Positions 6,216 through 41,456 of a stretch of 64,000 nucleotides of DNA are shown one piece after another (position 1 is the stretch's first letter; each line of letters starts with the position of its first letter). The translations under genes were made by a program, and so were the position numbers. The stretch is from positions 510,840-574,839 of the forward strand of contig NZ_JH976535.1 in NCBI RefSeq assembly GCF_000183545.2. The letters are read 5' to 3'. The stretch comes from Thermaerobacter subterraneus DSM 13965. GTDB lineage: Bacteria; Bacillota; Sulfobacillia; Thermaerobacterales; Thermaerobacteraceae. Below the pieces are notes generated by a model. The model saw only the letters and a list, made by a program, of their open reading frames with translations. It had not been told where the DNA came from and made no database searches.

Positions 6216-6309
6216 TAGACCAGAACCAAATAAGGATAGATTCGCAAAAACATCCCCCTGGACGGTTGGTCCGCCATCGCCCACGGGGCCACGCCCGGAG
6301 GTGAGCTGG

Positions 6310-7710
6310 GTGGCCAAGGAACTGGTCGAACTGGGCCAGGAGTACAAGTACGGTTTCCGCGACCCCGAGAACTACGTGTTCAAGTCCCCCAAGGGCTTGA
6401 CCCGGGAGATCGTCGAAAGCATCTCCCACTACAAGAACGAGCCGGACTGGATGCGTCAGATCCGGCTGCATGCCTTCGAGGTCTTTGAGAAGAAGCCCAT
6501 GCCCACGTGGGGTCCCGACCTGTCGGGCCTGCGCTTCGAGGACATCCACTACTACATCAAGCCCGCCGAGCGCCAGGGGCGCAGCTGGGACGAGGTGCCG
6601 GAGTACATCAAGCGCACCTTCGACCGGCTGGGCATCCCCGAGGCGGAGCGCAAGTTCCTCGCCGGCGTCAGCGCCCAGTACGAGTCGGAGGTCGTCTACC
6701 ACAGCATCCGGGAAGACCTGGAGAAGCAGGGCGTGATCTTCTGCGACACCGACACCGCGGTCAAGGAGTACCCCGACCTGGTGCGGGAGTACTTCGGCAC
6801 GGTGGTGCCGGCGGAAGACAACAAGTTCGCCGCCCTGAACACCGCGGTGTGGTCCGGCGGCAGCTTCATCTACGTGCCGCCGGGCGTGCGGGTCGACATC
6901 CCGCTGCAGGCGTATTTCCGCATCAACGCCCAGAACATGGGCCAGTTCGAGCGGACCCTGATCATCGTGGACGAGGGGGCCTTCGTCCACTACGTGGAGG
7001 GCTGCACGGCGCCCATCTACTCCACCGACTCGCTGCACTCCGCGGTGGTGGAGATCATCGTCAAGAAGGGCGGCCGCTGCCGTTACACCACCATCCAGAA
7101 CTGGTCCCACAACGTCTACAACCTGGTGACCAAGCGGGCCGTCGCCTATGAAGAGGCCACCATGGAGTGGGTCGACGGCAATATCGGCTCCAAGGTCACC
7201 ATGAAGTACCCCAGCGTGTACCTGCTGGGCCGCGGCGCCAAGGCCGACATCCTGTCCATCGCCTTCGCCGGCCGGGGGCAGCACCAGGATGCCGGCAGCA
7301 AGGTGATCCACGCGGCTCCCGATACCTCGTCCACCGTGGTGTCCAAGGGCATCTGCAAGGACGGCGGCATCCAGAGCTACCGCGGCCTGGTCCAGGTGCA
7401 CGAGGGGGCCGAGCGGGCCAAGGTCAACGTCCAGTGCGACGCGCTGATCCTGGACCCGTACTCCCGGACGGACACCTTCCCCTACATCGAGATCAACGAG
7501 GACAACGTCACCATCCAGCACGAGGCGACGGTGTCCAAGGTCAGCGAGGAGCAGCTCTTCTACCTGATGAGCCGCGGCATCGACGAGCAGACGGCGACCA
7601 CCATGATCGTCAGCGGCTTCATCGAGCCCTTCACCAAGGAGCTGCCGATGGAGTACGCCATCGAGATGAACCGCCTGATCCAGCTGGAGATGGAAGGCTC
7701 CGTCGGCTGA
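6310..7710 (+). CDS. sufB: Fe-S cluster assembly scaffold protein SufB
   Basis: SufB is the scaffold subunit of the cytosolic SufBCD complex, on which Fe-S clusters are built. The 466-residue sequence is full length. It opens with [16 protein letters not shown], has the conserved [20 protein letters not shown] and [20 protein letters not shown] regions, and ends with [21 protein letters not shown]. The GTG at 6310 is preferred over the one at 6301 because GGAGGTG (6297-6303) then sits six bases upstream. Firmicutes usually carry sufB as the last gene of sufCDSUB. Here no sufC, sufD or sufS is adjacent, and a Rieske protein follows instead. A SufU/IscU gene lies 25 kb away at 32519. It has its own TTGACA promoter. 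Confidence 0.95.
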
Positions 7711-8049
7711 TGGGGTTCCTGGGGCCGGCGGCTGCGTCCGGTCGACCGGGCCTGCAGGTCCGGCCGGCCGCCGTCCGCTCCGCCACCGGTCCCACCGGGG
7801 CGGCCGGGCGTGACCGGGCGCCCCTGGGAAGCGGTGGTCGGCTGGGCAAGCCGGGAGGCCGGTCCCCGGGACGGGCGGCGCCCGCCGCTTGCGCCAGAGG
7901 TCCCGCTGCGCCGGGCGGCCTGCATTGTGCCGGGCGGCCGCATGGAAGGCGGCGCGGGGCGGCGCGCTGGGCGGCAGCGAGGCTCTCAACGAACCGGCAA
8001 GGCCGGTGGCCCTCGGGCCACCGGCCTTCGCGTGGAGGAGGGTTGATCC
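7711..8049 (+). other. Gene-free stretch with perfect inverted repeat
   Basis: No supported gene lies between sufB and the Rieske gene. A perfect 14-bp inverted repeat, AAGGCCGGTGGCCC / GGGCCACCGGCCTT with a two-base centre, spans 7999-8028. It ends just before the GGAGGAGGG ribosome binding site of the next gene. There is no T run after it. It may attenuate read-through from sufB or shield the ribosome binding site; either is inference. Confidence 0.55.
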
Positions 8050-8364
8050 ATGGCCTGGAGGCAGGTGGCGACCCGGGATCAGGTCCCGGCGGGAACGGGG
8101 CTGAAGGTGGAGATCGACGGCCATCCTGTGGCTGTCTGGCATACCGCCAGCGGCGAGTTCTTCGTTACCGATGATACGTGCACCCATGCCCAGGCGTCCC
8201 TGAGCGAGGGGGGCCTGCAGGGCTACGTGTGCATCTGCCCGCGCCACGGGGCCCGTTTCGACGTGCGGACGGGGGCCGTGAGAGCCCTGCCGGCGGTGGT
8301 GCCCTTGCGCACCTATCCCGTGCGGGTCGACGGCGATGCCATCCTGATCGATTGGAAGGACTGA
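8050..8364 (+). CDS. Rieske-type [2Fe-2S] ferredoxin
   Basis: A small soluble protein of 104 residues with the Rieske ligand set C44-x-H46 (CTHAQASL) and C63-x2-H66 (CPRHGARFDVRTG). It matches the NirD / BphA3-like class of stand-alone Rieske ferredoxins that pass electrons to oxygenases or reductases. No signal peptide or membrane anchor is present, so it is cytoplasmic, unlike Rieske subunits of bc complexes. The ATG at 8050 follows GGAGGAGGG with good spacing. It lies directly after sufB and so may be part of Fe-S metabolism here. No oxygenase or nitrite reductase subunit is nearby, so the partner is unknown. Confidence 0.88.
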   Translation: MAWRQVATRDQVPAGTGLKVEIDGHPVAVWHTASGEFFVTDDTCTHAQASLSEGGLQGYVCICPRHGARFDVRTGAVRALPAVVPLRTYPVRVDGDAILIDWKD

Positions 8365-31458: not shown

Positions 31459-32352
31459 TTACCGCTCGATGGGCGCCCGCACCAGGTTGCCCCACTCGGT
31501 CCACGAGCCGTCGTAGTTGCGGACGCTCTCGAAGCCCAGGAGGTACTTCAGGGCAAACCAGGTGTGAGACGACCGCTCGCCGATGCGGCAGTACACGATG
31601 ACGTCGTCGTCCGGCTTGAGACCCTGTTCCTCCAGATAGATCTTGCGCAGCTGGTCGGCGGACTTGAAGGTGCCGTCGGGGTTGACCGCCTTGGCCCAGG
31701 GCACGTTCTTGGCGCCCTTGATGTGGCCGCCCCGCTGGGCACCCTCCTGGGGGTAGTTCTCCATGTGCAGCAGCTTGCCGGAGTACTCATCGGGCGAGCG
31801 CACGTCGATGAGCGGCTTGCCGAATTCGATGTGGCGCAGCACGTCTTCCTTGAAGGCGCGGATGTAGGGGTCGTAGCGGGTGACCGCCTTGTAGTTGGTC
31901 TTGGGGAAGGTGGGCACTTCCTTGGTCAGCGGCCGGCCCTCCGCCTCCCACTTGGCGCGGCCGCCGTCCATGATCTTCAGGTTCTTGTGGCCGAAGAGCT
32001 GGAAGACCCAGAAGGCGTAGGCTGCCCACCAGTTGTTCTTGTCCCCGTAGAAGATCACCGTGGTGTCGTTGTCGATGCCCTTCTCCGACATCAGCCGGGC
32101 GAACTGCTCGGGCGAGAGGTAATCGCGCACCACGGGGTCCTGCAGGTCGGTCTGCCAGTCGATCTTGACGGCGCCCGGGATGTGGCCGACCTCGTAGAGG
32201 GTCACGTCCTCGTCGGACTCCACGAGGCGGTACTTGGTGCTGTTGGGGTCGGCCAGCTCGTCCAGGTGCTCGGCCACCCACTGGGTGCTGACCAGGACCT
32301 CGGGGTGGGCGTAGCCCCGCTCCTGGAAGACCTTTTCCGCGGCCTCGGACAC
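31459..32352 (-). CDS. Thiosulfate sulfurtransferase (two-domain rhodanese)
   Basis: Tandem rhodanese protein of 297 residues without a signal peptide. The N-terminal domain is inactive ([16 protein letters not shown], no catalytic Cys). The C-terminal domain holds the persulfide-forming Cys255 in [18 protein letters not shown], preceded by [12 protein letters not shown]. The CRIGERS loop is that of thiosulfate sulfurtransferases (CRxGx[R/T]-type) rather than mercaptopyruvate enzymes. The GTG at 32352 follows GAGGAGGG. It is divergent from the IscU/SufU-like gene; together they suggest sulfur delivery for Fe-S cluster assembly. An operator-like site lies over the inferred transcription start. 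Confidence 0.93.
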
Positions 32353-32376: not shown

Positions 32377-32499
32377 AGTTAGCTAAGGGGAATTGTAAGG
32401 TAATAAAACCCGGTACAGCAACCAGTCTTTCCGTACCGGCCCGGATCCACCGGCCCCCCATGGAACTCCCGCCGCGCGTGATACATTAGTTAGGTAACT
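32377..32499. promoter_or_regulatory. Divergent promoters with twin AGTTAG[C/G]TAA operator-like sites
   Basis: AGTTAGCTAA (32377-32386) and AGTTAGGTAACT (32488-32499) flank the intergenic region; the second is a perfect inverted repeat AGTTA-GG-TAACT. For the rhodanese, TACAAT on the minus strand (32392-32397) with TTGCTG 18 bp away gives a start near 32385, inside site 1. For the IscU-like gene, TACATT (32483-32488) gives a start near 32495, inside site 2. Both sites would block their own promoter, fitting a common repressor. Confidence 0.55.
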
Positions 32500-32518: not shown

Positions 32519-32965
32519 GTGGAATGGGACCGGGAGACCCTGATCCAGATCCTGATCGAGGAGGCCCGCAACCCGCGGATGCGCGGGCGGCTGGACGACG
32601 CCGACGTGACGGTGTCGGGCGGCAATCCGGGTTGCGGGGACGTGGTGCACATCTACCTCAAGGGCACGGGCGACGGCCACGGCATCGCCGGGGTGAAGTT
32701 CGAGGGCAGCGGCTGCAACGTCAGCCAGGCAGCGGCGTCCATGCTGCTGCAAAAGGTGGTCGACGACGGCCTCACCATGGACCAGGTCCTCCACCTGCGC
32801 GGGGAAGACATGAAGCAGTTCGTCGGCGAATCGGCCCTGGCTACCCGGCCCCGCTGCGCCACCCTGGCCCTGAGCACGCTGAAAGAGGCTGTTCGCCAGT
32901 ACCGGCGCAAGCTGCGGGCCGAAGGGAAGTGGCAGGGTCCCATCGACTCTCACCAGGAAGGTTGA
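32519..32965 (+). CDS. sufU: IscU/SufU-like Fe-S cluster scaffold protein
   Basis: 148-residue NifU_N-fold protein with three conserved cysteines, C39 (GGNPGCGD), C66 (GSGCNVSQ) and C113 (TRPRCATL), and Asp41, the usual zinc/cluster ligand set. SufU-type proteins take sulfur from a cysteine desulfurase; IscU-type proteins build [2Fe-2S] clusters. The 46-residue gap between the second and third Cys is shorter than in B. subtilis SufU and close to IscU, so the symbol is provisional. The GTG at 32519 has GGGAGGG upstream. The neighbour on the other side is a rhodanese, and sufB lies 25 kb away, so cluster assembly genes are dispersed. Confidence 0.88.
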   Translation: MEWDRETLIQILIEEARNPRMRGRLDDADVTVSGGNPGCGDVVHIYLKGTGDGHGIAGVKFEGSGCNVSQAAASMLLQKVVDDGLTMDQVLHLRGEDMKQFVGESALATRPRCATLALSTLKEAVRQYRRKLRAEGKWQGPIDSHQEG

Positions 32966-40679: not shown

Positions 40680-41456
40680 TCACGGGGCCAGCACCACCTC
40701 GACGCCCGCTTCCGCCAGGGCCTCCAACTGCACGGCGGCGGACGCCTGGGCCTGGTCGTCGCAGATCAGGGTGCGGATCTGGTCGATCCCGGCAAACCGG
40801 GCAAAGGCGCGCCGCCCCAGCTTGCTGTGGTCGGCCACCACGTAGGACCGCTCGGCGGCGGCCAGCATGGCCTGTTTCACCGGCACCTTCTGCCGGTTGG
40901 TGGTGGACACGCCGTAGGCCACGTCGACCCCGTCGGCCCCCACGAAGGCCCGGTCCACGTGGGTGGCGCGCAGGTAAGCCTCCGTTTCCGGCCCCTGCAG
41001 GCTGTAGACACCCCGGCGCACCTGGCCGCCTGTCACGTACACGTCGACGCCCTCGCGATCCGCCAGCTCCCGGGCGATCAAGAGGTCGTTGGTCACCACC
41101 TTGAGGGTGATCCGGGGCGGCAGGTGGCGGGCGATCTCCAGCGTGGTCGAACCGGCGTCCAGGATCACCGTCTCCCCGGGGCGGATCAGGGCCGCCGCCG
41201 CCCGGCCGATCTTGCGCTTGGCCTCCACCTGCCGGGCCCGCTTGGTAGCGTAGGGCAGTTCCCTGGGCGTGACGGCGCCCACGGGCAGGGCACCGCCGTG
41301 GGTGCGCACCAGCAACCCGTCCGCCTCCAGGCGCTCCAGGTCGCGCCGTACGGTCATGGGGGAGACGGCCAGGCGCCGGGCCACCTCGCTGACCTCAAGC
41401 CGCCCTTCGGCTTCCAGCCACTGCAGGACTTGCCGGCGCCGTTCTTCGGCCAGCAT
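40680..41456 (-). CDS. DeoR-family transcriptional regulator
   Basis: 258-residue repressor. The N-terminal DeoR helix-turn-helix reads VSEVARRLAVSPMTVRRDLE with the following GLLVRTHGGA wing. The C-terminal sugar-phosphate sensing domain has ILDAGSTTLEIARHL, VVTNDLLIARELAD, VYVTGGQVRRGVYSL, FVGADGVDVAYGVST and VVADHSKLGRRAFARF. As first gene of the threonate/erythronate operon it is probably autoregulated and released by a phosphorylated C4 intermediate. Direct and inverted repeats around 41613-41641 overlap the inferred promoter and are candidate operators. Confidence 0.92.
   Translation of the reverse strand: MLAEERRRQVLQWLEAEGRLEVSEVARRLAVSPMTVRRDLERLEADGLLVRTHGGALPVGAVTPRELPYATKRARQVEAKRKIGRAAAALIRPGETVILDAGSTTLEIARHLPPRITLKVVTNDLLIARELADREGVDVYVTGGQVRRGVYSLQGPETEAYLRATHVDRAFVGADGVDVAYGVSTTNRQKVPVKQAMLAAAERSYVVADHSKLGRRAFARFAGIDQIRTLICDDQAQASAAVQLEALAEAGVEVVLAP

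Follow-up and report, generated by a model that had tools for sequence, protein, structure and literature searches.

Twin operator-like sites over the inferred transcription starts of a divergent rhodanese/SufU-like gene pair in Thermaerobacter subterraneus

The window analysed here—64,000 nucleotides from T. subterraneus DSM 13965, whose genome has 72% GC and 2.9 Mb and belongs to a small genus—contains a leftward rhodanese gene and a rightward SufU/IscU-like gene that diverge from a 166-bp gap, with a copy of the same operator-like motif over the inferred transcription start of each. Both sites are probably the operators of one dedicated, putatively dimeric repressor that would bind over +1. 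The twin sites described in an earlier note on this DNA are real: AGTTAGCTAA on the rhodanese side (32377–32386, minus strand; TTAGCTAACTC in gene direction) and AGTTAGGTAACT on the SufU side (32488–32499, plus strand). Read in the direction of their own genes they become TTAGCTAACTC and TTAGGTAACTG, and thus represent one motif that faces the same way with respect to both genes. The candidate operator may also be written as AGTTAGSTAACT.

The leftward gene (31459–32352, minus strand) encodes an SseA-type tandem rhodanese, thiosulfate sulfurtransferase-like, with two rhodanese domains (Pfam Rhodanese, 1.5e-36), an active-site Cys loop reading CRIGERSS, and a full-length match to PDB 1uar (‘Rhodanese’, 1.1e-123). 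Its divergent neighbour (32519–32965, plus strand), previously called IscU, is a genus-restricted SufU/IscU-like scaffold paralog. A scaffold-like protein with a metal site it is indeed: the three Cys and the Asp of that site align with B. subtilis SufU (1xjs, 5xt5) in the motifs NPGCGD, GSGC, and RPRCATL, which are invariant in four orthologs. The IscU label itself fits less well. Gram-positive SufU is marked by an insertion of ~19 residues between the second and third Cys, whereas IscU carries LPPVK ahead of its third Cys (PMC2644719). The protein has neither; the insertion corresponds to a gap in its alignment to B. subtilis SufU, and the sequence before the third Cys is SALATRPRC, with RPRC instead of LPPVK. 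It scores 77 bits against TIGR01994, below the cut-off of 92.5, and as judged from its sequence it is nearer to SufU than to IscU. The protein is confined to this genus in the collections searched, and scans of genome contigs yielded no further SufU-like orthologs. A second NifU_N-type copy is encoded elsewhere in the genome (G000:C1:46793). Apart from this second SufU-like copy lies a sufB gene, followed by a gene for a Rieske-type protein, at window positions 6301–8364; with sufB and the second copy at separate places, the genome does not keep its Fe-S assembly genes together.

The rhodanese promoter was called from conservation across five genomes and reads TTGCTG (32421–32416)-18-TACAAT (32397–32392) on the minus strand. 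Its inferred –35 box is TTGCTG throughout the genus and TTGCCG in the sister genus, while the inferred –10 box is identical in all five genomes. A consensus promoter scanner reported no sigma-70 site in this region at its threshold, and the rhodanese –35 box was missed as well. For the SufU-like gene, an extended –10 element, TGaTACATT, is inferred at 32479–32487 (plus strand), with TGGTACATT in G001 and TGATAAAGT in G003. These elements would put +1 at ~32385 (minus strand) and ~32494 (plus strand), that is, inside the two sites, in agreement with the earlier placement of the sites over both starts. A degenerate second copy of the motif, TTASCTTAC (32395–32403, minus strand), lies 17 bp upstream of the rhodanese-side site in gene direction and overlaps the –10 box. 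This copy is kept in five genomes, with the upstream spacer diverging, and may constitute a second operator half or a second binding element at the rhodanese promoter.

We compared the four genus genomes (G000, the window's own, to G003) with a sister genus (G004) and with further relatives (G005, G006, G014, G039, and G089). G000 and G002 are nearly identical and were counted as one lineage, so that the independent genus lineages number ~3. All four genus genomes retain the rhodanese-side site as TTAG[CG]TAACTC, and a weakened form of it, TGTAGATAACTC, persists in G004, whose rhodanese promoter also retains TTAGCTTACAAT and where the SufU-like gene is not adjacent. In a three-species footprint (ungapped alignment anchored at the rhodanese start codon), nine of ten columns are invariant at the site and nine of ten at the –10 box, against 0–2 of ten across most of what lies upstream of the –35 box and 2–3 of ten in the –35/–10 spacer. 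The conserved islands in this footprint are the –35 box, TTASCTTACAAT (the –10 box with its upstream flank), TTAGSTAACT, and the ribosome site. Since the sister genus has the rhodanese-side site but no SufU-like neighbour, this comparison marks that site as the older, constrained one. Its counterpart on the SufU side reads AGTTAGGTAACT in G000, AGTTAGGTAACC in G002, and a degenerate AGTTAAGTAACC in G001, and is lost in G003. The best reading of this pattern is that the SufU-side site is the younger of the two and not always retained, and that joint control would be recent and partial. Conservation in related genomes, a point on which the earlier note had staked its case, is hence seen in every genus genome for the rhodanese-side site, while three of the four species show it for the site on the SufU side; likewise, the proposed joint control of the sulfur-transfer and scaffold genes is plausible for most species.

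Genome-wide motif searches were carried out as pattern searches. The exact motif AGTTAGSTAA occurs twice in the 2.9-Mb genome, both times at this locus. With up to one mismatch, the window contains three matches, all of them here (one being the right site read on the opposite strand), compared with 0.37 expected, and none of 100 shuffles reached three. TTAGSTAACT is found once per genome in the three congeners, each time at the rhodanese promoter. The looser TAGNTAACTS matches the rhodanese site in five of five genomes and two other places only (G002:1894767 and G004:C145), which we rejected as further sites, the sequence there being unrelated. Within the 166-bp gap itself, an inverted 10-mer pair at 9/10 arose in 510 of 3000 dinucleotide shuffles (17%), and a near-palindrome pair with at least 10 of 12 positions alike in 48 of 2000 (2.4%). 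On the evidence of the window alone the pairing of the sites is modestly unusual; it gains weight from the genome comparison.

According to the model that we favour, a dimeric repressor would recognise the short palindrome (A)GTTAGSTAAC(T) and, once bound over +1, would obstruct transcription from the rhodanese promoter by blocking RNA polymerase. The same repressor would act likewise on the divergent SufU-like promoter in most species of the genus. We infer that the protein represses rather than activates and that a single binder serves both sites; as the gene content suggests, its signal is probably sulfur or persulfide status. A polymerase-blocking repressor fits better than a core-promoter element because a short palindrome lies over +1 and the register of the core is variable: the motif core starts six bases past the –10 box at the rhodanese gene and three bases past it at the SufU-like gene, a difference between the two promoters that argues against a core-promoter element. 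The site was found at no other gene. Counting against a dedicated repressor, no autoregulated regulator gene bears the motif; among the open frames scanned, the only regulator recognised within ~10 kb is a DeoR protein (40680–41456), ~8 kb off. The modest local shuffle statistics, the ~3 independent lineages, and the state of the SufU-side site in G001 (degenerate) and G003 (absent) weigh in the same direction. As to candidate binders, G004 encodes an HxlR-type regulator, specific to that genus, two genes from its rhodanese (L035 22–435) and in the unit divergent from the latter. This regulator was rejected; the window's genome has a single HxlR match, at another location, and the two proteins are only ~41% identical. 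Among the titles and abstracts consulted, the motif strings led to no regulator already described. If correct, the proposed arrangement would couple sulfane-sulfur transfer and a scaffold protein peculiar to the lineage in one small, testable regulatory unit.

The loss of the SufU-side site in G003 and its weakening in G001, together with the frequency of 9/10 inverted pairs in local shuffles, also favour a different and less probable, though still serious, explanation, namely that a conserved promoter or initially transcribed element of the rhodanese gene is alone functional, that its counterpart at the SufU-like gene is a chance look-alike, and that joint control is absent. Against this stand the restriction of the two exact genomic occurrences to this one locus and the persistence of AGTTAAGTAACC in G001, where the remainder of the gap has diverged. 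We consider it improbable that a loosely selective global regulator is at work, with its two best sites at this locus by chance. The degenerate version TGTAGATAACTC kept in G004 would make wider degenerate sites conceivable, but GTTAGSTAACT at one mismatch is confined to this locus and one non-shared place each in G000 and G003. Nor did the motif precede other Fe-S genes, where the earlier note had suggested looking for it: exact and one-mismatch searches gave none genome-wide, and no second site in the window, though sufB is present there.

The regulator originally suggested for both sites, an Rrf2-type (IscR/CymR-like) protein sensing Fe-S or sulfur status, is the least credible of these candidates, although every genome of the genus has a single clear Rrf2 gene (G000:C2:19324–19698 in the window's genome), with a cysteine desulfurase gene behind it (neighbour read in G000). 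The three cysteines of the IscR cluster-binding loop are present in Rrf2 of G005, G006, G014, and G039; Rrf2 of G000, G001, and G003 has none of them and a shortened loop. Its DNA-binding helices are like those of the relatives, yet the rrf2 promoter of the genus carries a conserved palindrome of its own, CCCAGTNNNNCAGTGGGAATT, which is unlike the AGTTAGSTAA motif. Moreover, no GTTANNTAAC occurs at rrf2 loci, and G004 (a draft genome) retains the site without a convincing Rrf2 match. We thus rejected Rrf2 as the likely binder on the missing cysteines, its own promoter box, and the rarity of the motif. What survives of the original proposal is the common repressor, given a pair of related sites so positioned as to obstruct both promoters, but not its assignment to an Rrf2-type, Fe-S-sensing family.

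Elsewhere in the class, an IscR-like palindrome lies just downstream of the –10 box of the orthologous rhodanese, as ATGTCCCGACTACAATAGTCGGGATT in G014 (palindrome CCCGACTACAATAGTCGGG) and, weaker, as AACCGAGTACGATAGTCGGGATT in G089 (loci L037 and L080), with a partial resemblance in G005. This would speak for Rrf2, and by such resemblance, control of the rhodanese by an Rrf2-type Fe-S sensor may hold for G014 and G089. The rrf2 promoter of G014 is itself without the box found at its rhodanese promoter. A tentative scenario, which we regard as possible but rather unlikely, is that in this lineage the rhodanese passed from an ancestral Rrf2/IscR circuit, at which the IscR-like site of the class relatives would still hint, to a dedicated one-locus repressor. 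The local Rrf2 would meanwhile have lost its Fe-S cluster, and the SufU-like scaffold peculiar to the genus would later have come under the same operator. Rhodanese control in the class would then have shifted from iron-sulfur sensors of this family to another regulator; apart from such rewiring and the link to the scaffold, the arrangement would be an ordinary one of repressor and operator.

Like IscR/Rrf2 operators, the sites are palindromes near +1 of sulfur or Fe-S genes, where repression would act by occlusion. However, IscR-like sites have half-sites several bases apart, whereas the sites here are a compact GTTA-NN-TAAC, and the local Rrf2, without cluster ligands, has a promoter box of a different kind. 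Operators of the CopY/BlaI type, TACANNTGTA, consist of 4-bp half-sites (TACA) around a 2-bp centre; the sites share these dimensions, a likeness that we treat as a lead only, but their half-site is GTTA and no such regulator gene was found nearby. DtxR/IdeR iron boxes, TTAGGTTAGSCTAACCTAA, have the half-site GTTAG/CTAAC in common with the sites, which at 10–12 bp rather than 19 bp do not show the DtxR/IdeR spacing. Finally, an extra GTTAACTAAC in G001 and G003 was rejected as an operator, as it looks like a chromosomal dif site. In these two congeners TTCGCAnAAGTAGCATTATGTTAACTAACGCG is kept within otherwise unrelated flanks (G003:C1:2192109 and G001:C1:1313571; L042 and L043, around base 1500), and it resembles the chromosomal dif (XerC/XerD) site.
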